From NCBI RefSeq assembly GCF_031877795.1, contig NC_133971.1, positions 15,416,325 through 15,480,324 of the forward strand: 64,000 bases of DNA, in the 5' to 3' direction. Source of the DNA: Strix aluco. Its lineage: Eukaryota > Chordata > Aves > Strigiformes > Strigidae. The notes beneath the pieces were generated by a model. That model searched no databases. It saw only the letters and a list, made by a program, of their open reading frames with translations, and had not been told where the DNA came from. Of this stretch, positions 6,986-55,100 are shown in pieces. Every line of letters begins with the position of its first letter. Within the stretch, counting starts at the first letter, position 1. The position numbers were made by a program, and so were the translations under genes.

Positions 6986-7450
6986 TGTCCAGAGAAGGAC
7001 AACGAAGCTGGTGAAGGGTCTGGAGCACATGTTGTACGAGGAACGGCTGAGGGAACTGGGGTTGTTTAGTCTGGAGAAGAGGAGGCTGAGGGGAGACCTC
7101 ATCGCCCTCTACAACTACCTGAAAGGAGGTTGCAGAGAGCTGGGGATGAGTCTCTTTAATCAAGTAATAAGTGATAGGACAAAAGGGAATGGCCTCAAAT
7201 TGTACCAGGGAAGGTTTAGACTGGATATTAGGGAGCATTTCTTTACAGAACGGGTCGTTAGGCATTGGAATGGGCTGCCCAGGGAGGTGGTGGAGTCCCC
7301 ATCCCTGGAGGTGTTCAAGAGGCGGGTTGACATAGCGCTGAGGGATATGGTGTAGTTGGGATCTGTCAGTGCTAGGTTAACGGTTGGACTAGATGATCTT
7401 CAAGGTCCCTTCCAACCTAGATGATTCTGTGATTCTATGATTCTGTGATT
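6986..7450 (+). mobile_element. CR1 LINE, 5'-truncated, 3' end
   Basis: This is the 3' end of a chicken-repeat-1 non-LTR retrotransposon in plus orientation. A frame open from 6981 to 7355 encodes the C-terminal end of the CR1 ORF2 protein, past the reverse transcriptase core, with the typical series [37 protein letters not shown] and [19 protein letters not shown] short 3' UTR follows (GGTTGGACTAGATGATCTTC) and then the CR1 tail of ATTCTGTG/ATTCTATG octamers to 7450. Like most CR1 copies it is strongly 5'-truncated. The open frame over the fragment suggests a fairly young insertion. It has no host function that I can see. Confidence 0.95.
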
Positions 7451-11097: not shown

Positions 11098-11418
11098 CTG
11101 AGCAAAGTAATATTTGTTTGAATGTCAAAATTATAGGTTGTTGAGTAATGTGAATCTTTTTTTCCCCTTATTTATATTTATATACAATATATGAGTTTTG
11201 ATGAAAATGCATATGTATTTATCTAGACAAATGCATCTTCCCTTCCATAGACCCTTGGAAGTTATTGCTCAGTGCAATTACTTATTAAAAGCTATTACTT
11301 ATTAAAAGCTATGTCCATATGTTGCGGGAGGATATCGGACTTGCACAACTCTATGAGAGTTATATCCAGCAAAGTAATTTATTTTTCCAATAGTACTACT
11401 TATGCTCTCGCCAAAGCA
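11098..11418. repeat. Duplicate of the provirus 3' junction: host flank plus 99 bp of LTR
   Basis: This block is a close copy of 17967-18292. Positions 11098-11319 match the host DNA left of the provirus, including a tandem TTACTTATTAAAAGCT and the target-site hexamer TCCATA (11314-11319). Positions 11320-11418 match the first 99 bp of the LTR (TGTTGCGGGAGGATATC onward) and then break off after GCCAAAGC. Because the same host/LTR junction is present twice, the simplest reading is a local duplication of about 320 bp after the provirus inserted, not two insertions. Confidence 0.85.
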
Positions 11419-12979: not shown

Positions 12980-13210
12980 GGTTAGACTGGATATTAAGAA
13001 GTATTTCTTTACAGAACGGGTCATTAGGCATTGGAATGGGCTGCCCAGGGAGGTGGTGGAGTCCCCATCCCTGGAGGTGTTCAAGAGGCTGGTCGACATA
13101 GTGCTGAGGGATATGGTGTAGTTGGGAACTGTCAATGTTAGGTTAATGGTTGGACTAGATGATCTTCAAGGTCTTTTCCAACCTAGATGATTCTCTGATT
13201 CTGTGATTCT
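12980..13210 (+). mobile_element. CR1 LINE, short 3' end
   Basis: The sequence matches the last part of the CR1 at 7.2-7.45 kb nearly base for base: TTAGACTGGATATTAAGAAG, ACAGAACGGGTCATTAGGCA, CTGCCCAGGGAGGTGGTGGA, GGTTGGACTAGATGATCTTC, and a tail of ATTCTCTG/ATTCTGTG octamers. It is 5'-truncated to about 230 bp and belongs to the same subfamily as the 7-kb copy. Confidence 0.95.
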
Positions 13211-17966: not shown

Positions 17967-18187
17967 CTGAGCAAAGTAATGTTTGTTTGAATTTCAAAAT
18001 TATAGGTTGTTGAGTAACGTGAATCTTTTTTTTTTTTCCCTTAAATGCATATTTATATACAATATATGAGTTTGATGAAAATGCATATGTATTTATCCAG
18101 ACAAATACATCTTCCTTTCCATAGACCCTTGGAAGTTATTGCTCAGTGCAATTACTTATTAGAAGCTATTACTTATTAAAAGCTATG
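17967..18187. repeat. Host flank of the provirus, second copy at 11.1 kb
   Basis: This segment is nearly identical to 11098-11313. It contains a T-rich run, ATTTATATACAATATATGAG, and a 17-bp tandem repeat (TTACTTATTAGAAGCT / TTACTTATTAAAAGCT) just before the target site. It is the original pre-integration sequence on the left side of the provirus. Confidence 0.85.
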
Positions 18188-18193
18188 TCCATA
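18188..18193. repeat. Target-site duplication, left (TCCATA)
   Basis: TCCATA directly precedes the LTR terminus TGTTGC and recurs directly after the other LTR at 25147-25152. Six bases is the duplication length of alpha- and betaretroviral integrases. Confidence 0.93.
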
Positions 18194-18586
18194 TGTTGCG
18201 GGAGGATATCAGACTTGCACAACTCTATGAGAGTTATATCCAGCAAAGCCGTTTATTTTTCCAATAGTACATACTCATGCTCTTGCCAAAGCTCTTACTT
18301 CATAATTAGCAAATCAGCAGTTAGACAGCTATTAACCTTTTCTCCTATCAGCATAAGACCACTCTAACACACGCTGTGCAGACCAATCAACTTCTTGTTC
18401 ATGCGACGGTAACTTCCCACAGTTCAGTACTTTCCCACAGCTCAGTGTTGCAGCTGTCCGTTGTTTTTCCCTGCCACCTTGGCACAACTCAGCAGTTTCT
18501 GATCTTTCTCCCAAGGTCTGTTTCTCAGCAAAGCCTAGCTGTCGATTCAGAGGCTGTGCAGGGCTGACAGACCGATGTCTCCCACA
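18194..18586 (-). repeat. 3' LTR of the provirus (393 bp)
   Basis: It starts TGTTGCGGGAGG and ends CTCCCACA on the plus strand. The minus strand is the sense direction, beginning TGTGGGAG and ending CGCAACA. On that strand an AATAAA lies in GGAAAAATAAACGGC near 18250, as expected for the R region. It matches the right LTR over its whole length. Confidence 0.95.
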
Positions 18587-18600
18587 TCTCCCCCTTCCTT
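18587..18600 (-). promoter_or_regulatory. Polypurine tract
   Basis: Directly inside the 3' LTR, the minus strand reads AAGGAAGGGGGAGA, 14 purines in a row ending at the first base of the LTR. This is the expected plus-strand primer site of a retrovirus and fixes the orientation. Confidence 0.88.
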
Positions 18601-18717
18601 GTTTTACAGCTGCACCTGCAAGACTTGTTTCAGAGCTTTATCAATTAAGGTTTAGACAAACTTCAAAAAACACAGTATACATAGACGAACTTCAGAAAAC
18701 ACAATATACATAAAATA

Positions 18718-18729
18718 ATTACAAAATAA
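18718..18729. repeat. 12-bp direct repeat left of the VLDLR insert
   Basis: ATTACAAAATAA occurs here and again at 19203-19214, on either side of the VLDLR-derived sequence. It lies within AT-rich viral spacer on both sides. See findings for the capture-junction interpretation. Confidence 0.7.
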
Positions 18730-18738
18730 AGAAGATAA

Positions 18739-19183
18739 CTCCTTGAGGGGCTCATCACTCCAGTCTTTGCAGTCTCTCTGCTGGTCACACACTTTATTGA
18801 CACATTCTCCACTTCTGCACTTAAATTTGCCAGGTCCAGAGCACTGAATAGCACTGTTACAACTTACTTCATCGGAGCCATCCAGACAGTCTCTCACACC
18901 ATTACAGTGCCTACTCCCATGGATGCAGTTCCCATCTTCACATCTGAACTGGTCTGGTCTGCAAATCCGAGAAGGGCAGTTGACTTCATCACTTCCATCC
19001 TTGCAGTCAGGATCTCCATCACAGCACCACTTTTTGTGGATGCATTCACCTGAGCTGCATTGCATCTCCATCACACTGCCATCTGTTAGGCACACTCTCA
19101 TCACTGCCATCACACTGACCACTGATGCACACAAAATCAGATTCAGCACACGTCTTCACCACACAAGCAGTCTAATCACTTCC
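18739..19183 (-). pseudogene. VLDLR: Processed VLDLR fragment captured in the provirus
   Basis: An open frame from 19149 to 18652 contains three LDL-receptor class A repeats that I recognise as VLDLR repeats 6, 7 and 8: [10 protein letters not shown]...[34 protein letters not shown]...[10 protein letters not shown], and [12 protein letters not shown]...[12 protein letters not shown]. Cysteine spacing and the acidic SDE calcium motifs are kept, except for a Cys in place of the usual Arg after KKW and a two-residue loss in repeat 8. Upstream, in another frame, are the end of repeat 1 (with an in-frame stop) and repeat 2 ([10 protein letters not shown]...GQC). Repeats 3-5 are missing. In vertebrate VLDLR genes introns separate the exons for repeats 1, 2, 6, 7 and 8, and none is present here, so the source was spliced RNA. 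Homology stops after PLKE, close to the exon boundary before the EGF module. No signal peptide or membrane anchor is evident. Confidence 0.88.
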
Positions 19184-19189
19184 ATAAAG

Positions 19190-19690
19190 CATATGACTAA
19201 GTATTACAAAATAAGGAAAATACAGAATAGCACACTTATTTAACGCGGTACTAATACTCAGATCTGCAATTGCTGGGGAACCCTGGGTGCAGCGAGAATT
19301 TAGAGTGCCCTTCCTTGCAAACCGGAAATCCTACGCGATGCGTTCATCTGTAGGTGAGGCATCCAAAGTTGCTGCAAGCAGGTCCAGCCTCTAAATCAAC
19401 AGGCCAAAATAACTGGCAATTTTCTTTGAGCGGAAACATCTGATTTCATCCTCCTGTTGGGTTCCACCCAGAGCCTGGCCACCACTCAAGGGGGAAAACC
19501 AAGGGAGTTTCTAATAAGGTTAAACACTCGAGTTCTTAATTCTTAATATTGCTAAACAAAGAAAGTTGAATACACACATTCTTACAGCATTTCATCCTTA
19601 TCAATAACTACATTTTGTCTAAGCTACATCTTTCACTAGTGACTAGTAAGCCTATATATTTCATTAAGGAGTTGTAATTACTATTAGCAT
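19190..19690 (-). repeat. Proviral internal repeat, copy 1
   Basis: This non-coding block between integrase and the VLDLR segment has a diverged second copy at about 22310-22920. Shared landmarks, in order: GGAAAATACAG, CAGATC(T/C)GCA, GAAATCCTACG(C/T)GATGC, ATCTGTAGGTGAGGCATCCA, AATAACTGGCA, CAGAGCCTGGCCA, AAGGGAGTTTC and TAAGCTACATCTTTCA. Its origin is not recognised; it has no coding content that I can see. Confidence 0.75.
19203..19214. repeat. 12-bp direct repeat right of the VLDLR insert
   Basis: ATTACAAAATAA, the partner of 18718-18729. It is immediately followed by the viral spacer motif GGAAAATACAGAATAG, which is also present (diverged) in the second copy of the internal repeat. Confidence 0.7.
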
Positions 19691-20002
19691 TTTCTCTTAA
19701 AAGAGTTGGCAACCGTAGTGTGATTAAGGACAGAGATAGTGTATTTTGTCCTATTGCAGCAACAAGCATTACCCATCCATTCTGCTTAAATGATCAGTCG
19801 AAGAGATTGCAAACTGTCAGCACAGGGGCATCCACAGCACCCACAGCCGGCTCCTGAGTGTCCACCAGAAGCTGCCTCTCACGCCTCAGGTATGGTCACA
19901 CACGCCTTGCTGGTAACCACCGGGGACCGTGACCTGTGGAGACACAAGCATAACCTCTTCCCCAGGTTATTAAAGGATCTGGTCCTTCCCAGTTACCACT
20001 TT
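19691..20002 (-). other. Proviral spacer between integrase and the env position
   Basis: No envelope gene is recognisable. The stretch holds no open frame resembling surface or transmembrane protein motifs on the minus strand. Confidence 0.5.
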
Positions 20003-20852
20003 CTAGGTTTTTTTGCTAACACTTGAGCCTTGCCCTGGACCTCTTGTTGATCTGGTATCTGATGAGAAGTGACGCAATATAGGTGGCACCTGTGAGACAG
20101 GGGAAATGTTTAAAAAGTTCATGACATATAATGCCTTATTTAGCCTTTTGTGAGGTGTAGATTGATACCCTCCATCTCCCCCTTTTTGTTGTTGTAATAG
20201 ACGCTTTAGCGTGCCATGCGGGCGCTCCACAATGGCCTGTCTGGTCGGTGAGTGGGGAATGCCGGTCAGATGCTTGACTCCCCACTGTATGGCAGGACGC
20301 AAACACTGCTCCAGAAATGGTATCAACAGACACATGTACATATTTTAACATTCCAAATGCAGCGAAGTGAGTGACGTCAGATTGCCATAATTCTGAGGAG
20401 GTGAGTCCCTGAGGGTTGACACCACTAGCTGCTGAAGAGAGGGAGTCCTCTGGTATTCAGGGCAAGTCACAATGATGTCTATAGCCTGACGCCTTGATAA
20501 AGAAAACATTTTTTGTATTGCTCTGGCGTTTTGGTGGAAAAAATGCATGTGAAAGCCGTGTTTGCTCAAAGACATTTGTATTGGCCACTGTAACATGTGC
20601 ATAGTAACTGGAACAATGATACACACAGGTTCCTGATCAGCAAGTAATAGTAGGTGCTGCCTACCTTTCATGATCAGTTTGGCAAACATTTCTGGACAAG
20701 CAGTGACCGTCTTGTGCATTTGGTGTGACAAACAAAAATCCATTCAATAATAACAAAAGGGTCACTAAGTGTTTCATCCCACTGAAACAGCAGGGCATAG
20801 GGCTGCCCTGGAGGGTTAAATAATGTCGGTTGATACGGATGGCCAGGCACAC
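20003..20852 (-). pseudogene. Retroviral integrase remnant (pol 3' part)
   Basis: Integrase of the class II provirus, which would join viral DNA ends to the host chromosome. Visible pieces in two or more frames: an N-terminal zinc-binding region with an H...H...C pattern (FFHQNARAIQKMFSLSRR followed by IVTCPEY) in 20743-20345, and the end of the catalytic core (GIPHSPTRQAIVERPHGTLK, 20341-20003), which contains the glutamate of the D,D-35-E triad in QAIVE. The core segment between is damaged. Frameshifts at about 20340 and 20700 and the C-terminal truncation make it non-functional. Resemblance is to betaretroviral integrases. Confidence 0.85.
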
Positions 20853-21164
20853 ATCGCGATGCTTGTGTTTCTGAGATGGCGTTAGCTACACGGTGGAGAT
20901 CTTGTTTCGCTTCCTCTGTAAGTACTCTGGTGATGTCAATGAAGGATCTCCTCGCGAAATATCAAACAAGCTATGCAGATCATCATTAGTTAGGCCCAAC
21001 AATGGCCGTATCCAATTTATGGCTCCTAACTCTTTCTGTAAATCATTTAAAGTCTTAACATCAGTTTTAAGTTTAACCTGTTGCGGGACAATGGTCTGTT
21101 CACAAATTCTCCACCCCAGGTACTGCCACGGTGATGATCGCTGTACCTTTTCAGGTGCTATTTG
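20853..21164 (-). pseudogene. RT connection / RNase H region, degenerate
   Basis: By position this is the segment between the RT palm and integrase. Only scattered similarity is visible and no RNase H catalytic motif can be traced, so a deletion is likely, as the interval is far shorter than a full connection plus RNase H. Confidence 0.5.
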
Positions 21165-21789
21165 TCACCCCATTTGAGATACTGAGTCTTTGGTTAAAGC
21201 AAGAGCCTTTTCCATGATCTCCTGTGTTTCTGCTGCTATAAGGATGTCATCCATATAATGATATATAACAGCCTGGGGGACCTGCATTCTAACAGGGCTC
21301 AAAGCCTTTGCAACAAACCACTGACACATCGTGGGACTATTTTTCATGCCTTGTGGCAAAACAACCCAGTGGTACCGTCTTGCAGGTTCACTATCATTAA
21401 TACTGGGAACAAAAAAGGCAAATTTAGGTGCATCATCCGGATGCAAGGGAATGGTAAAAAAACCAATCCTTTAGATCAATTATTACAAGATGCCAGTTTC
21501 AGTGAATCATTGTTGGGGAGGGCAGTCCTGGCTGTAATGTACCCATATCCTCCATGGCATCATTGGTGTGTCAGAGATCATGTAAAAGCCGCCATTTACC
21601 ACTTTTCTTTAACATAACAAACACCAGGGAGTTCCAAGGACTGGTGGTAGGTACAATATGTCGTGCACTTAATTGTTTCTGAACTAAATCATTAAGGTGG
21701 TGCAACTTTTCCATTGGCAAGGGCCACTGACCCACCCACACAGGTGATTCTGTGGGGTTGTGCTGCAGTGGGTTGTGCTGCAGTGGCAA
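21165..21789 (-). pseudogene. Retroviral reverse transcriptase remnant
   Basis: RT of the class II provirus, split in two frames. 21789-21571 carries the N-terminal fingers ([38 protein letters not shown]). 21446-21165 carries the palm: HPDDAPKFAFFVPSIN, VLPQGMKNSPTMCQ and the catalytic box YMDDILIAAET. The first catalytic aspartate region lies near the frame break at about 21450-21570. The order and motif wording are those of beta/alpha-type RTs. Disruptions make it inactive. Confidence 0.92.
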
Positions 21790-21925
21790 TTAAGACAAAT
21801 TTGATCCAATTTGAGTTCCCCATTGAGCCATAGAGTCACGACCCCATGATGTAACAGGGATTTCCAATATAAATGGACGAATATTTGCTACCCGGTTTTC
21901 TGGGCCCCTTACATGAATGAGATAT

Positions 21926-22177
21926 TTACTTTGAAACATTACAGCATGACCAGCAACCCCGAAAAGTGCTTGAGTTACCCGAGCTAATGGCCAGTCTGCT
22001 CGCAGCTATTACGGTCACATCCGCACCAGTATCTAAAATGCCTGTCAGTTCAACAGATTCTTCTGCTTTGGTGAGGGTACATTTTACCAGAGGTCGACCT
22101 TGTGTCACTGTCTGAGCCCAAAATATTTGAGGAGCACCTGTTGATCCAAATCCTGAGTCACCCTGGCTTCTCGGCAT
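21926..22177 (-). pseudogene. Retroviral aspartic protease remnant
   Basis: The frame reads GDSGFGSTGAPQIFWAQ, then GILDTGADVTVIA, the retropepsin active site with the catalytic aspartate. In betaretroviruses the protease follows dUTPase in the same frame and opens with a similar glycine-rich linker, so this is the expected neighbour, but here about 930 bp of extra sequence separates the two. The frame loses similarity after the active site and lacks the expected flap and the C-terminal GRD/N motif. Confidence 0.88.
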
Positions 22178-23110
22178 ACTATTAGAGGGAGCCTGTTTTG
22201 CTGATTAGGGATACCAATTAAACTCAGACACCAGAGTGAAAAGAGCAGGCATATTTTACCAGAAATAACTAAATAATATAACAGAATAATACAGAAAACA
22301 TACAGTAAGAAAAGACAGAATAGTGCATTTAAACAAATAGGAAAATACAGGGTAATGCATAAAATCATTACTACGTGAGAGAGAGAATAGTGATTAAGAA
22401 GATACCTCACCACTTGCATACGTTACCATCACCCAGATCCGCAGTCGCTGGGCAGCCCCGGTTACAGCGAGGATTTGGAGAGCCTGTCCCGGCAAGTGGG
22501 AAATCCTACGTGATGCATCCATCTGTAGGTGAGGCATCCAAAGTCGCTGTGAGTGGGTCCAGCCTTATATACCAAAAATCAGCAAGCCAGAATAACTGGC
22601 ACCTTTGTTTTCAGTGGAACATCTGGTTTCAATCTCACACTAGATTCCCCCCCAGAGCCTGGCCAGGGCTCAAGGGAGAAGCTAAGGGAGTTTCCCTGCT
22701 TATCTAATTTATTTATGTTCTTTTTAGAACAAGGCCACACGTCTGGTCCCAAGGCTGGACAGCTGGCTTCATGGCTTTGTTAACTTGCCTCTACACCAAG
22801 AAGAAGAAAGATACGTTCAGGATAGACATGTTTTCATTACATTCATCATCAGTAATGAGTATATGATATCTAAGCTACATCTTTCATTAATGAGCATACA
22901 TATTTTGCTAATGACTACATACTAAGTTAGCAGCTTTGGCTCGGGGCCTGTTGTTCAGGCTTCAATACTTCAACATTTTAGCACTTTTTACATCAGTATA
23001 GGTGGTTTGTTATAACCTAGTACAATACCTACTAGCACAATGGTTATCAGTTATAAAATATACAGGATTCATCTATAGGTCAACCCTGGCTTGGGCCTGT
23101 TGTCCAAGCC
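22178..23110 (-). other. Extra block between protease and dUTPase
   Basis: These domains are normally adjacent, so this block is an insertion relative to the family plan. It contains an AT-rich hydrophobic-coding stretch (22200-22400), copy 2 of the internal repeat, and near its right end two similar 25-bp pieces (about 22937-22965 and 23086-23113, both with GGGCCTGTTGT). Confidence 0.65.
22310..22920 (-). repeat. Proviral internal repeat, copy 2
   Basis: Diverged duplicate of 19190-19690, in the same orientation, with landmarks in the same order (GGAAAATACAG, GAAATCCTACGTGATGC, ATCTGTAGGTGAGGCATCCA, CAGAGCCTGGCCA, AAGCTACATCTTTCATTAAT). It is longer than copy 1 because of insertions around 22700-22850. 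Confidence 0.75.
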
Positions 23111-23389
23111 TTAGCACTTCAGAGCTGCAGTAAAATAAACAAGCTGAACAATTTTTGACCCTTTTGTTACTGAACACAGGGGTACAGGGGTCCAGGCCAT
23201 AATTCTGATTTCCCCTTCATAATCAGCATCTATGACCCCTGGTAAAACGAACAACCCCTGTAAGGTTGTAGATGATCTTCCCAGTAATAATGCAGTTTTT
23301 CCATTTCCCAGTGGTCCATATACTCCTGTTGGTATCAAGGATATTGTGGTATCTAATAATGTTACTGGCTCGGAGGCTGCTAGGTCCAC
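23111..23389 (-). pseudogene. Retroviral dUTPase domain remnant
   Basis: This resembles the betaretroviral trimeric dUTPase, which hydrolyses dUTP to keep uracil out of viral DNA and is encoded in the gag-pro frame. Motifs visible in order: VDLAAS (motif 1), LGRSSTTLQGLFVLPGVIDA (motifs 2 and 3, with the GRSS and the catalytic GVIDADY aspartate) and a C-terminal KGSKIVQLV strand (motif 4 region). The glycine-rich motif 5 is not seen. The frame is short compared with a complete domain. It supports assignment to the beta-like class II group, because alpharetroviruses lack dUTPase. Confidence 0.88.
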
Positions 23390-24363
23390 GCCTGATCAAT
23401 AGTGACTAAATTATTATAAACCACCACTGATTGCAATATTTGATTAGTGTCTTTTTATTCACACTTGCGCCTGGAGGTCCCCCTATCTTCTTCCAGCATT
23501 TTAAAATACAGCCTAGGGGACTCTTTTTGACTATTGCCCCACTCTGGCTGCTTCCCATCTTGTCTACTTTACCTTAAAATGCTACGCGATTAGCTGACAA
23601 TATCCCCCTCAGGCAGATGGTACAAGGGTGCACTCTCCCCACGGAGTATGCACCTAAATTCAAGACAACAATTAACAAAGAATTACTGCCTCCTGCTAGA
23701 GGAGATATTTCACCTACGACACTTAAAACACAGCCCGAACAAACTGGCAGCACCACTGACCCAGCGGGCAGGCACTAGGGGCCTCTGTACTAAGGAATGT
23801 TCCCTCATCCTGCACTACCCCCCACTGGTACAGAGTCTGCCCTGCGCTTCGTTCCTCTCCGGCCCCTTCCCTCACGGGATAACGGGACTGCGGGTAGAGA
23901 ACTCTGCACTCTGCAGCTGCGGCTGGGCTGCGTCTCACACACGCAGAACAATCACACAACCACACAAAGGGGGCCCTTACACTTATTATTCACACAACAT
24001 AAAATGAGAAATACTACAAACATCAAAACACCATTAAGAATGTATAAATCCATTGCTTGTTGATTATGTGGTGTGCCCAGAAAATTCCCCCTTCTTTGTT
24101 TTTAAATCAAGCCTTTAGTGTACTGACCATCAGAAAGGTTTAAAGTTAGTCCTTTTAGAATGGACAAGGGACTCCGCATCACAGTGTCAGCACCTTCTGT
24201 AAAAAACTGCCGCTTTTGGTGTTCGGGGGAGGCGGGACAGACGATCGCGCGGTGCCAGATGGCCGCAGGCAGTCGCTCTGCAATGGGGGGGCTCGGTGAG
24301 GCCCAGGGCCCCGCCGCCAACTCCGCGCTTTAAGAGTGTCCAAAACCAACTTCCAAGTGGTCG
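23390..24363 (-). pseudogene. Degenerate gag region
   Basis: By position this should hold the rest of gag (matrix end, capsid, nucleocapsid). Capsid major-homology and zinc-knuckle motifs are not recognisable. GC-rich proline-containing frames at 24102-24409 could be a gag linker. The interval is too short for full gag, so deletions are likely. Confidence 0.55.
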
Positions 24364-24600
24364 CTAGCTCACTGGCATGCTGACCCCCCCTTGGAAATAG
24401 CATCCCCACAACTGTTCACCTATTTCAGCCCATTTTGCTGCTTCAAAGGCTGTGACAGCATCGGCAGGATAGCGGTGGTTTCTGCACCATTTAAGTAACC
24501 TTCGTACAGAAGTTTCGTTATAAGTTATCCCTCTCTTAGAGAGTATATGCAGCAGGAGTCTGACAGTGGCCATCTCCTCTGCGGACTTGTTCTGCCCCAT
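24364..24600 (-). pseudogene. gag matrix N-terminus
   Basis: The frame starts MGQNKSAEE, with Gly at position 2 as in a myristoylated matrix protein, followed by helical sequence (VRLLLHILSKRGITY, RRLLKWCRNH, AAKWAEIGEQLW). It begins 134 nt downstream of the primer-binding site, the right place for gag, and stops after 78 codons. Full gag is much longer, so this is the truncated start of the gene. Confidence 0.8.
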
Positions 24601-24734
24601 GCTGCCCCCGATGGATCACCTCTCCCGGGTGATTTTCCGTCGATCGACTGTTTTCCATCCTCCCTGTCACAGTCCCGCTGTAGACAGTACCTCCAATCGG
24701 GGATCCTCCTGCGGTGTCTTCTGTGCTCCATCCT

Positions 24735-24752
24735 GGGACATCGGGGTCACCA
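24735..24752 (-). promoter_or_regulatory. Primer-binding site, tRNA-Trp-like
   Basis: Two bases inside the 5' LTR, the minus strand reads TGGTGACCCCGATGTCCC. The first 12 bases match the tRNA-Trp primer site used by avian alpharetroviruses (TGGTGACCCCGA). The last six are diverged, giving about 14 of 18 matches by eye. Confidence 0.8.
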
Positions 24753-24754
24753 TT

Positions 24755-25146
24755 TGTTGCGGGAGGATATCAGACTTGCACAACTCTATGAGAGTTATAT
24801 CCAGCAAAGCCGTTTATTTTTCCAATAGTACATACTTATGCTCTCGCCAAAGCTCTTACTTCATAGTTAGCAAATCAGCAACTAGACAGCTATCAACCTT
24901 TTCTCCTATCAGCATAAGACCACTCTAACATGCGCTGTGCAGATCAATCACCTTCTTGTTCATGCAACGGTAACTTCCCACAGTTCAGTACTTTTCCACA
25001 GTTCAGTGCTGCAGCTGTCCGTTGTTTTTCCCTGCCACCTTGGCACAACTCAGCAGTTTCTGATCTTTCTCCCAAGGCCTGTTTCTCAGCAAAGCCTAGC
25101 TTTTTCTCAGAGGCTGTGCAAGGCTGACAGGCCGATGTCTCCCACA
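24755..25146 (-). repeat. 5' LTR of the provirus (392 bp)
   Basis: Same ends as the left LTR (TGTTGCGG ... CTCCCACA). Sense is minus: U3 begins TGTGGGAGACATCGG and the polyadenylation signal AATAAA lies in GGAAAAATAAACGGC near 24811. It would have driven proviral transcription leftward, towards gag and finally the VLDLR segment. Confidence 0.95.
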
Positions 25147-25152
25147 TCCATA
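25147..25152. repeat. Target-site duplication, right (TCCATA)
   Basis: Perfect match to 18188-18193. It shows that the two LTRs belong to one integration event. Confidence 0.93.
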
Positions 25153-43100: not shown

Positions 43101-46100
43101 GCCATAAATAATTACAATCTTTGGAAGATTACAAGCAGCAGTGCTGGTTTAGAAGTAAATTCAAAGTGTATACAGAGCCAAATTTATTTTACTATATGCA
43201 TGAAAGCACAATAGCTGGTATTTCTTTTAAAATGTACACTGATATTACAATAACCACAATATTCTTGTTACCAGGTCTTGAAACCTGTTTGAACATGTTA
43301 TCTGGGAAAAAAGTCTCAGTGGAATTTCACTCCTGAAGATTTCAGAGCAGAAATTTAGGAACCAAATTCACATGCCTGATTTCCCACAGAGAATTATATC
43401 CATGTCTGAGTGTCTCTCATTAAAAAAACCAGTTTAATACACCCTGACATTACATAGCACTTATTGTAGAATAAAAGTTTCTGTCTTTGCAGGAATGCCA
43501 GGTATATAAGCCAAAACAAATAGGCACAGCAACAAAAATGACATGATAGACCTTAGTCTTGGAAAGAACCACTATTTTCTTTCAGATTAATGATCTGTGG
43601 GCTAAGGAGGATTTACGCTAATCATTATGATTTAATGAGTCAAAATACACTCTTTTAAAAGACCCTAAATACATATTTACATGGTACGCTTGAGCTATTA
43701 TGGTTGATCAGTTAAATAATGCAAGTAATGCATAGAGTCATACCATTACAACCTATCAGGGAAGTCTAAGGTTCATCCCTATTTTTGAATTACATAACTT
43801 CTGTTGCATCAAGATGAGATGATTGATAACGTTTTATTCTGTGATACTTCTCTGCAGTGCATTTTGCTACTAAGTTCTACTTGATTCTGGTTGTTCTGAA
43901 TCTGCCATTTATGGAAGACAGCCCCTGTCCCCAGTCCTGACAACAGGGGTTTAATTTAGATTCTTAGTTAAAACCTCTTGAAAATCATACAGTGTGCTTG
44001 CTTCTTAGTTTGTCGCTTCCTGTGCTTTATTATAGCTGCAAGAGATAGTTTACGATGTTAAATTGGCTAAGTTGAAATGTCATGCTGGACAGCTGCTCCT
44101 AAACCCTTTTGAAAGGCTCACTCAGTATTAATTTGAACTACAACTACCTTCTTTCTTCTTCTAGCATCTTTGTTCTAACCTCAGAACATGGTTTTGCATT
44201 TTCTTGCTTTTGTTGCATAAGATCCTAGTTCTTTATGCCTTTAATATGTTTTATCAATGAAATACACAAACAGACCTGTGAGTTAAGAATATGGAGTTTA
44301 ATCAGCTGTATAATGTTGGGTAATGGTGGGAATATGAGATGGTTATGAACAGCAGTAACAGCAGTCACAAAACTCATGTTCCTCTGTTGGATTCCTGCAT
44401 ATTTGCTTGTCTTAATGAGTTCTTGTCCTTTCTGATTAGCTTGATGTTTCACTGACTGGATTCTGCCCTTGACCATAGCTGGGGGTGCTCTGAGTCTGTA
44501 TTCAGCAGCACTGTAACTTGATATAACATGTTCATTGAGTGCACCCTCAGCAAGTATGCCAACGACACCAAGCTGTGTGGTGCGGTCGACACGCTGGAGG
44601 GAAGGGATGGCATCCAGAGGGACCTGGACAGGCTTGAGAGGTGGGCCTGTGCAAACCTCATGAAGTTCAACAAGGCCAAGTGCAAGGACCTGCACATGGA
44701 TTGAGGCAATCCCAAGCACAAATACAGGCTGGTTGATGAGTGGATCGAGAGCAGCCCTGCAGAGAAGGACTTGGGGGTGTTAGTGGATGGACAACTGACT
44801 ATGAGCCAACAATGTGCACTCACAGCCCAGAAAGCCAGCTGCATCCTGGGCTGCATCAAGAGAAGTGTGGCCAGCAGGTCGAGGGAGGTGACTCTCTCCC
44901 TCTAGTCTGGTCTCATGAGACCCCACCTGGAGTACTGTGTCCAGCTCTGTGGCCCCCAACATAAGAAAGACATGGACCTGCTTGAGTAGGTCCAGGGGAG
45001 GCCACAAGGATGATCAGGGGACTGGAGCACCTCCCCTATGAGGACAGGCTGAGAGAGTTGGGATTGTTCAGCGTGGCAAAGAGAAGGCTGCGGCAAGACA
45101 TTATAGCAGCCTTCCAGCACTGATTAGGGGCCTGCAGGAAAGATGGGGTTGGGACTCTTTATCAGGGAGTGTAGTGATGGGATTACACATAATGGTTTTA
45201 AACTGAAAGAGGGTAGATTTAGATTAGATATTAGGAATAAATTCTTTCCTTTGAGGGTGGTGAGACCCTGGAAGAGGTTGTCCAGAAAAGTTGTGGATGC
45301 CCCTTCCCTGGAAGTGTTCAAGGCCAGGTTGGACGGGGCTTTGAGCAACCTGGTCTAGTGGAAGGTGTCCCTGCCCATGGCAGGGGGTTGGAACTAGATG
45401 ATCCCTTCCAACTCAAACCATTCTATGATTCATGAAATTCCAGGGTTTGCAGCTTGGACGTGAAGAACTGGCAGACATTCTGTGGGAATTAGATCTGAGA
45501 AATAAGATAATTGTGCAGCTCTAGTGTATACTGAAGTATTTTATTCTTACTAATATACTTCTTGTTTCTTATAAATAACTAAATGTTACTGTAAGTGTAA
45601 TTTACAAATAGCTAATAAAATGTTTCTTATAAATAAATTCTTCATTAATTGTTCATACAAGGATGGAAGCTAAACTGGGGTTTTGTTGTTTGTGCTCTTT
45701 ATTGAGACAATTTTATTGCTTACTATATGCCATAGTTTCAGATTTCTCTGAGATCAAATAGGAAAACTTTCGTCCTTTTTAAAAATAAAATCACACTGGG
45801 TTGACTGATCTTGCTTTTACCTTGTTTTTTTGTTCTGTATAAACACTTTAAAACCTTGTGTGTTTAACTTGCTGTGGAAACAACTTTGCTTTATTTTTAA
45901 GGTACTATGTTGGGTTTTGTTTTTATTTCTCCTTAGTTCTGTTGCATAGCAAGATTGTTCCAGGGAAAAGGAACAGGACTTTAACTTGTGTAACTTTTCC
46001 TGATTTTTTTTGTCATTGCTTTTTTGTTTTGATTTTTTTTTTTTTTTTTGATTACAGCTCCTGAAAGGTAATTCTGTAAAGCGTTTCAGGTTACTGAGAT

Positions 46101-52100: not shown

Positions 52101-55100
52101 CTTCTTAGATTATTCAAGTCTTTATTTACTAGGTGATAATATAAAGCAGTAGTATGTGTTGTTAGCCTTCATCTGACTGTATTATTAATTAGGTAATATT
52201 GCAAAAGCTCAGGGAGTTTCTTTTAAAAGCATTACACTAAATCATAAGACTTTTGAGAAGCATGTGAGTGATATATTAACTCTTCAGAGAAAAAAATGTT
52301 GATGAAAATGTGCAATCTAGAACTTCGTTTTATAGAATTCTAGAACTTTCTGATAATGATGTTCACGGTGTTTTTCTTTTCAGATAAAAAAGCTTGTATA
52401 TGTTTATCTGATGCGTTACGCGGAGGAACAGCAAGATCTAGCATTACTGTCCATCAGTACTTTCCAGCGTGCTTTAAAAGTGAGTGACTACTAAACAACA
52501 TTTCATAGAGAATTCTGAGCTGGTATCACAAAAATAAAAATATCTGTGTAGGGTAGTCTGGTAAACTAAAGCATGTAAATACCTGCATCGGATAGAGTAG
52601 TTTCAAGTTATGTCATTGACAGAGTTTTTTGTGCTACCTCAAACCTCATCAAGCAGCTAAGCCTGCATGAAATAAAATTACTTCACTAAAGAAAAGCAGC
52701 CTATTGGTGCTCTCAAATTCACCTGTCCAGCATTTAATTTCTGGAATGCCTTTCTCTTTCCAAGGTAGTTTATGCAGGTAGAAAGAAGACCTTGTTACTA
52801 CCCTGAACCACCTGTGTTCCTTTTAGTTTGTGTAAAAGATCTTTGTGTACAACAGATAATTGGAACAAAAGGAAGATTGTAGTACCTAAATTAAAATATT
52901 CAATGTGTTGCACGTGCTTCTTTTTTATTAAAAACACTGAAGAAATAGTATTTTATACTGTTTTATTTCAAATTCAGATCACAATGGGGAATGGGATTAA
53001 AGAACAAAGATTAGGATTGCCTTTGAAGTGTGACCATGGAGAAAAGAAAGATTTATTAAGTCTCTGTTCTTAAGTTTGGCCAGTTTTTGTAATAAGAGAA
53101 AGTTGGATTTTTTTCTTGTACTCTTCTTTTAAGGCTACTCTAGGTTCATAATTAATTTCTGTCATGTCACTGATCCAGACCTTGCATCTTGTTGGAAAAT
53201 GTTGCAATTAGAGCACCAAGTGTGCAACTGTAGGAGCATCTCACAACTGACTAGAGAGCTTTCTGCCCCTTTCCTTCTAGTTTTTATCTCAATGACATAT
53301 CACAGAATCACAGAGTCATTCAGGTTGGAAAAGACCCTTGGGATCATCGAGTCCAACCATCAGCCCTACTCTACAAGTTCTCCCCTACACCATATCCCCC
53401 AGCATCTCATCTAAACGACCCTTAAACACATCCAGGGATGGTGACTCCACCACCTCCCTGGGCAGCCTATTCCACTGTCTGACCACTCTTTCTGTGAAAA
53501 ATTTTTTCCTAATGTCCAGTCTGAACCTCCCTTGTTGGAGTTTAAAGCTGTTACCCCTTGTTCCGTCACTAATCACCTGTGAGAAGAGACCAGCACCAAC
53601 CTCTCTACAATGTCCTTTCAGGTAGTTGTAGAGAGTGATGAGGTCTCCCCTCAGCCTTCTCTTCCTCAAACTAAACAGTCCCAGCTCCTTCAATCGCTCC
53701 TCATAGCATTTGTTCTCCAGGCCCTTCACCAGCTTCATTGCCCTCCTCTGCACTCGCTCCAGCACCTCAATATCTCTCTCGTATTGAGGTGCCCAGAACT
53801 GGACACAATACTCCAGGTGTGGCCTCACCGGTGCAGAGTACAGGGGGACTATCACCTCCCTACTTCTGCTGGTCACTCTATTTCTAATACAAGCCAGGAT
53901 GCCGTTGGCTTTCTTGGCCGCCTGGGCACACTGCTGGCTCATGTTCAGCTGCTTGTCAATTAGAACCCCCAGATCCTTCTCCTCCAGACAGCTCTCCAGC
54001 CACACCTCCCCAAGTCTGTAGCGATGCAGGGGGTTGTTGTGGCCCAAGTGCAGGACTTGGCACTTGGCCTTGTTGAAGCTCATCCCGTTGACGTTGGCCC
54101 ACCAATCCAATCTATCCAAGTCGCTCTGTAGAGCCTCCCTATCCTCATGCAGATCGACACTCCCGCTTAACTTGGTGTCATCTGCGAACTTACTGATGAT
54201 ACACTCTATGTCCTTATCAAGATCATCAATAAAGATGTTGAACAGAAATGGTCCCAACACCAAGCCCTGAGGAACACCACTTGTGACCGGCCGCCAGCTG
54301 GATTTAGCTCCATTGACCACCACTCTCTGGGACCGTCCATCCAGCCAGTGCTTGACCCATCAGACCGTTCGCTCATCCAGGCCATGGGCAGCCAGTTTTT
54401 CTATGAGAATGCTATGGGGAACTGTGTCGAATGCTTTTCAAAAATCCAGGTAGACAATATCCACAGCTTTTCTCTTGTGCAATAGTTGGATCATCTTGTC
54501 ATAGAAAGAGATCAGGTTTGTCAGGCAGACCTGCCTTTCATAAACCCATGCTGACTAGGCCTGATCCCCTGGTTGTCCATTATATGACTTTTAATGGCAC
54601 TCGAGTTGACCTGCTGCATGACCTTCCCTGGCACTGAGGTCAGACTGATAGGTCTGTAGTTTCCTGGATCCTCCTTTCTGCCTCTTCTGTTACATTTGCC
54701 ACCCTCCAGTCCAGTGGGACCTCCCCAGTTAGCCATGACTTCAGGTAAATCATGGAAAGTGGCTTGGTGAGCACATCTGCCAACTCTCAGCACCCTTGAG
54801 TGTAACCCATCTGGTCCCAGACTTGTGTGCATCCAAGTGGAGTAGCAGGTCTCTGACCACTTCCTCTTTAATTGTGCTGACCTCATTCTGCTTCCCCTCC
54901 CCATCTCCCAGCTCATGAGGCTGGGTGTCCAGGGAACATCCAGTTCCACTGCTAAAGACTGAGGCGAAGTAGGCATTGAGCACCTCAACCTTTTCCTCAT
55001 CCTTTGTTACCATGTTTCCCTCTGCATCCAATAAAGGAGGGAGATTTTCCCTAATCCTCCTTTTGTTGTTAATGAATTTATAGAAACATTTTTTATTATC

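Follow-up and report, generated by a model that had tools for sequence, protein, structure and literature searches.

The 64,000-nucleotide stretch of DNA analysed here, referred to throughout as the window, lies on contig NC_133971.1 (C41) of the owl Strix aluco, whose genome was analysed as 1.41 Gb in 202 contigs. Within it, on the minus strand at 18194-25146, stands a provirus of an endogenous retrovirus (ERV) that carries a fragment of the host gene VLDLR in the place of env. The provirus is bounded by paired long terminal repeats (LTRs) with TG...CA ends and by a 6-bp target duplication, TCCATA, which is exact on either flank, and the coordinates assigned to it in an earlier note on this stretch are right (Table 1). 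In viral sense, the sequence TGGTGACCCCGATGTCC, which resembles a primer site, follows the 5' LTR, and AAGGAAGGGGGAGA precedes the 3' LTR. When 12 open pieces of the provirus were searched against Pfam, matches were obtained to dUTPase, RVP, RVT_1, RVT_thumb and LDL-receptor class A, while the integrase core (rve) was matched below the Pfam cutoff (E 2e-5); five of the 12 pieces were without any match and none matched env, which the note had called unrecognisable. Neither Rfam, at gathering thresholds, nor a tRNA scan returned anything. A 6-bp duplication and the order dUTPase-pro-pol are traits of class II ERVs, and the order dUTPase, protease, reverse transcriptase, integrase is present here (integrase below cutoff); we regard the element as a class II-like avian ERV, an assignment made from the dUTPase and the 6-bp duplication only. 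The two LTRs differ at 21 of 392 aligned bases (18 of them transitions), compared with 24/401 and 8/341 in the related copies L010 and L013.

The VLDLR piece comprises the end of LDL-receptor class A repeat 1 (LA1), most of LA2 and then LA6-7-8; the latter three repeats share one frame, as the note had described, and the LA1 end and LA2 lie in another. The donor gene, with its introns, is found on the same contig at 29.66-29.67 Mb, where eight LA repeats are encoded in six exons and the exons that follow read as EGF-like. Its LA1-8 protein matched the VLDLR chain 8ufb_V (326/327 residues, E 6e-188); LRP2 chains scored higher in total, over several stretches, and LDLR scored lower. Compared with donor LA6-8, the insert in the window is 93% identical over 335 aligned positions, and its exons meet exactly where the host gene has introns: this holds for the window at LA6/LA7 and LA7/LA8, and for sister copies at LA1/LA2 and LA2/LA3, bearing out the absence of VLDLR introns. 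Chance resemblance is excluded by this identity together with the recurrence of the virus-host junction described below. In the duck, VLDLR lies on the Z chromosome (PMC3162882), which together with the 97 Mb of C41 suggests that C41 is Z; a second contig, C40, is probably the W chromosome. One pair of copies with the same flank, L022 and L023, lies on C40 and C41 and would fit a shared Z/W site. A W-linked VLDLR gametolog was considered as donor and rejected, none being present among the 40 candidate places scored out of 99.

Recurrence of the junction at other loci had been set beforehand as the test of capture. The 33-base junction between virus and LA1 occurs, with at most three mismatches, at 63 genomic places, and its reversed control at none. 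C40 holds forty of these places and C41 seven, and the remaining 16 are spread over ten further contigs, making 12 contigs in all; three of the places (C10:1984678, C35:488387 and C202:1049870) were left out of the fetched set. The 3' LTR end was found in 26 of the 39 loci examined (in L052 and L054 by an extrapolation of three bases), and the outer flanks beyond it are of 22 distinct kinds; the four repeated flanks are accounted for by two duplicated pairs, L019/L020 and L022/L023, and two re-fetched loci. Seven of nine further copies have a 6-bp target duplication of their own, five exact and two with one mismatch. One virus-host junction is thus shared by independent insertions: proviruses carrying VLDLR spread through the genome as a multi-copy family. 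The note's proposal that a retrovirus had captured receptor repeats is upheld by these insertions, and its alternative of a dead-end defective genome fails, since the capture spread to many of them.

The same fusion is present in other owls. A protein search with the form-B frame (defined below) gave 35 matches, mostly to VLDLR or other class A proteins, among them three nameless owl proteins, two from Bubo scandiacus and one from Otus sunia. One of the Bubo proteins begins with the integrase-tail peptide MNFLNISPVSQ, which is also present in the open reading frame (ORF) of the window, and continues through a viral segment that we call the leader into LA2-LA3; the Otus protein joins the leader to LA2. 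Among 38 matches to the form-A frame the best was a Strix occidentalis protein with LA6-8, whose insertion peptide is nearly identical to that of the window (MAVTRV for MAVMRV), and two short nameless sequences, P0037 and P0040, are also of form A. The owl proteins cited for the fusion are P0001, P0005, P0006 and P0036, and all three genera, Bubo, Otus and Strix, belong to the Strigidae. P0037 comes from a nameless contig of 881 bp, possibly a chimeric one; the sequence ends in NSGKWS, which looks like readthrough into the host LA7 intron (NSGKWN). Two duck models, P0052 (Anas zonorhyncha) and P0026 (Anas platyrhynchos), combine exons of VLDLR with either reverse transcriptase or LA pieces in scrambled order; both are without the viral leader and may be unrelated.

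Relatives without VLDLR were also found. The viral joint, uninterrupted by VLDLR, occurs at 60 places. Four of these belong to VLDLR copies, as their 3' flanks, and from the remaining 56 four were fetched. L060 combines an integrase from a different pol lineage (70-74%) with a fragment of gag, the whole leader after integrase, the 3' region and an LTR, and is empty of VLDLR through to the LTR. In L059, L061 and L062 the joint and the 3' part of the leader (to 19576 in window coordinates) lie inside gag; what follows the leader in L061 reads as the end of capsid and a zinc-finger nucleocapsid. The L061 element continues with dUTPase and reverse transcriptase (by eye), integrase (E 5e-11) and, after integrase, an env transmembrane remnant (L108:3-422; TLV_coat, E 1e-7, GP41 below cutoff), with no match to the 3' LTR in the 3.5 kb beyond. 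In at least one relative, therefore, env occupied the place that leader and VLDLR take in the VLDLR elements. In L025 and L027 the insert is preceded by about 38 nt of virus, which are found again directly behind it with a few differences; L026 keeps the right-hand stretch only and L060 has the stretch once, and the repeated sequence is viral and family-wide. The captured cDNA is cut off at both ends, and in none of the copies displayed is there a poly-A behind the insert.

It is highly probable that a spliced host mRNA was captured by template switching and then spread as the cargo of a defective retrovirus. The starting point would have been a class II-like avian ERV that had presumably already lost env and much of gag. 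Reverse transcriptase would have switched template from viral RNA to spliced VLDLR mRNA, copied it backwards from LA8 as far as the end of LA1, and rejoined the viral RNA at an earlier viral position; a return of this kind would leave about 38 nt of virus on both sides of the insert, as seen in the older copies. Later deletions would have produced form A, in which LA2 is joined to LA6, and form B, which keeps only the LA1 end to LA3. Proviruses with the cargo would then have multiplied and integrated at many sites, including those on the probable W; relatives would presumably have supplied Gag, and also Env if the elements were infectious. VLDLR is the yolk receptor of the avian oocyte, and the capture may have taken place there, where abundant VLDLR mRNA during growth would favour a germ-line event. 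Template-switching recombination after co-packaging of retroviral RNAs is described in PMC5086612, for a case different from the capture of VLDLR. Several points weigh against this account. An insertion made by a long interspersed nuclear element (LINE), with a long target duplication, could in principle account for the 38-nt repeat; the target duplication was not found in two of the nine copies, whose 5' LTR edge is outside the fetched stretch; the VLDLR of form B is too host-like for simple descent from the A/C capture, so that more than one event belongs to the history; and the equation of C40 with W is inferred.

Three forms of the cargo can be distinguished. Form A, the window type, joins LA1end-LA2 to LA6-8 and occurs at 17 of the 40 scored places, counting duplicate pairs, with shorter copies also existing (C35, L017). 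Form B consists of LA1end-LA2-LA3, is broken off inside LA3, where the viral 3' region takes over, and occurs at 22 of the scored places; to it belong also all 32 junction sites that were newly fetched, 27 of them full length. Form C (L013-L016) has LTRs 75-81% like those of the window in aligned parts and a further deletion, and shares the LA2-LA6 joint, which is clear in L013-L014; L013 itself, an element some 2.4 kb long, has VLDLR and a fragment of gag between paired LTRs, and the pol of the window is unmatched in it. Among the 40 places scored out of 99 candidates, LA4-LA5 were found only in the host gene. Extra insertions interrupt the VLDLR part of some form-B copies (L011:1616-2001, L081, L082, L099). 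Two more partial form-C-like copies lie at C41:26153700 and C41:37889356 (93% over 168 bases, plus the 3' part), and a tandem array at C16:10289800-10293200, arranged head-to-tail with a spacing of about 80 bases, matches L013 around the piece spanning the LA1 end and the start of LA2.

The forms differ in their distance from the host gene. Forty full form-B copies differ from it at a mean of 4.8 of 242 bases, every change being found in at most seven copies. In the LA1-LA2 stretch, from which comparison L014 and L017 were left out as having no alignment start, ten A copies differ from the host at 4-8 of 100 bases, L024 at 9 and L013 at 11 of 79, with shared derived sites. The A copies L018 and L025-L027 are mosaics, with fresh LA1-LA2 (3/392) beside older LA6-8 (54/1205; p 0.0002). 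We put at about even the chance of a second capture, in which recombination between host VLDLR mRNA and an element that already held VLDLR brought in the fresh sequence that became form B. The closeness of form B to the host and the narrow sharing of its changes favour this, as do the older shared changes of the ten A copies, L024 and L013 and the mosaic structure of the four; however, the shared stretch is just 100 bp, and mosaics would arise equally if B and A elements recombined with each other or if one lineage evolved slowly. The divergence contrast between B and A is best explained by re-uptake of host sequence aided by homology, or by recombination between elements.

Whether the cargo ever served as a coding sequence was judged from its substitutions. 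For form B, 40 of 45 loci were full length (L010 and L012 are the same loci as L050 and L049, and L011, with a nested insertion, was excluded); the set consists of fetched junction sites, copies from the similarity list biasing any comparison of form-B with LTR divergence. Private changes relative to the host number 47 non-synonymous or stop and 16 synonymous, and shared changes 30 and 10, against a neutral expectation of 2.9 to 1: the form-B insert evolves neutrally and is a passenger. For form A, 13 of 17 copies were used, leaving out the duplicates L007, L020 and L023 and the stop-bearing L024. Their LA6-8 changes are 45 non-synonymous and 9 synonymous when private and 10 and 14 when shared (Fisher 0.0004), and the shared synonymous excess appears in the VLDLR frame only (p 0.0006 against expectation; 0.93 and 0.45 in the other frames), a hint that this frame at one time yielded a mini-VLDLR protein. 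The effect diminishes when the count is confined to transitions (p 0.006, Fisher 0.02). The frame, in which LA6-8 stand between a hydrophobic stretch at the N terminus and a hydrophobic tail, is fully open in four of 16 copies.

A small class A protein encoded by form A and of use to the virus, for instance as a decoy or receptor mimic, is suggested by this frame-specific excess, by the copies open from end to end and by the similar ORF annotated in Strix, and yet we hold it doubtful. Divergence of the donor VLDLR or recurrent mutation at the same sites may supply part of the excess, and some of the shared changes unite copies that are not obviously sisters. No ATG stands in frame before the hydrophobic part of the 18655-19155 ORF, LA8 is without its last cysteine, 12 of the 16 copies are interrupted or truncated, the signal weakens when only transitions are counted, and form B is neutral. 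The fuller scenario, in which a small LA6-8 protein, maybe anchored or secreted, was under purifying selection during germ-line spread in owls, a mini-VLDLR having replaced env and having been renewed from host mRNA at least once with the aid of homology, is unlikely. Of the secreted decoy imagined in the note, what survives is a modest signature of protein constraint in form A only; form B speaks against it, and the decoy itself is unproven. The cargo is in the main a passenger; form A may have been coding for a while. An env-type signal peptide supplied by the form-B leader was dropped as a main claim, the leader lying in gag in the relatives and form B being neutral.

Three other origins bear on the insertions themselves. 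It is possible that a LINE mediated the first insertion into a master provirus, although a trace of poly-A would then be expected in older copies. Chance arrival of a processed VLDLR pseudogene in a single old provirus would account for intron-less host coding sequence, and is very improbable: a poly-A tail with its own duplication was not seen in the copies displayed, both ends are truncated, and as an explanation of the family it is refuted by one junction at 63 places with distinct flanks and 6-bp duplications. Host segmental duplication or assembly artefact, to which the concentration of junctions on one contig and the two flank-sharing pairs might point, is scarcely credible given 12 contigs, separate target duplications and other owl species, and is refuted for the 22 sites with distinct flanks. 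Capture followed by retroviral spread is the account we retain.

Retroviral capture of host genes is known mostly from tumour viruses, and acutely transforming alpharetroviruses carry captured oncogenes. The owl elements share with them a spliced host cDNA in viral sense, the loss of viral genes and, presumably, the need for a helper; they differ in that the cargo is a fragment of a receptor ectodomain and forms a germ-line multi-copy family with subfamilies. Non-autonomous LTR elements are likewise a known category, which L013 resembles in its size, paired LTRs, gag fragment and unmatched pol, whereas much of the internal sequence of the owl elements is host coding sequence. Tva, through which avian viruses of subgroup A enter, resembles the putative cargo protein in being small and in having an LDL-receptor class A repeat, but is a host gene. 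Enrichment of avian class II (ERVK-type) ERVs on the W chromosome is described in PMC8310711; the owl elements share with such ERVs the 6-bp duplication, the dUTPase-pro-pol order and the predominance of junctions on a contig that is probably W, and differ from them in having a host gene cargo in env's place. A term search of three avian ERV papers (PMC8310711, PMC6523648 and PMC11009239) gave no mention of VLDLR, and no report of VLDLR capture in retroviruses or repeats was among the matches listed in the open-licence literature. Here a captured piece gave rise to a whole family in the germ line, with many insertions, several subfamilies and a relative that is empty, which allows capture, trimming and possible re-capture to be read as fossils. 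VLDLR takes up yolk precursors on the chicken oocyte (PMC3162882) and serves Semliki Forest virus as an entry receptor by way of LA2, LA3 and LA5 (PMC11661604); given these roles, translation of the cargo is a real and testable question.

Table 1. Features of the provirus and its immediate flanks (window coordinates; viral sense is the minus strand)
Feature	Position	Strand	Basis or remark
Target-site duplication TCCATA, left	18188..18193	.	
3' LTR (viral sense), 393 bp	18194..18586	-	
Purine-rich tract adjoining 3' LTR	18587..18600	-	direct reading
3' viral sequence	18601..18739	-	first part, in LA6-8 frame, is the hydrophobic tail
Captured VLDLR LA6 (partial), LA7, LA8 (without last Cys), intron-less	18740..19068	-	host cDNA 645-979
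167-aa open frame, stop to stop	18655..19155	-	hydrophobic N-terminal part, LA6-LA7-LA8, hydrophobic tail
Captured LA1 end and most of LA2	19064..19185	-	host cDNA 97-200; 18-bp insertion matching LA1-end sequence
Viral sequence 5' of capture	19186..19222	-	recurs beyond VLDLR insert in older copies L025-L027
Viral leader segment	19223..19661	-	
Integrase remnants	20006..20456	-	20139-20456 is rve below cutoff, remainder by eye
Reverse transcriptase and thumb pieces	20889..21470	-	Pfam
Protease piece	21929..22204	-	Pfam
About 930 bp between dUTPase and protease	22194..23121	-	missing from form-B copy L067 (only B copy compared)
dUTPase	23114..23395	-	Pfam
gag start, matrix-like ORF	24367..24615	-	by eye, without Pfam match
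5' LTR (viral sense), 392 bp	24755..25146	-	
Target-site duplication TCCATA, right	25147..25152	.	

Some smaller features of the locus complete the description. The gag-start ORF has a longer counterpart in the form-B copy L067, which matches Gag_p24, and the segment between dUTPase and protease holds a 76% copy of part of the leader. Positions 11098-11417 and 17967-18292 form a 93% duplicate made up of host flank and the first 99 bp of the LTR; since the LTR is included, the edge of the provirus was duplicated locally after insertion. Another repeat family, in both orientations and 67-93% alike, occupies 6987-7444, 12982-13210, 44533-45435 and 53299-54210.

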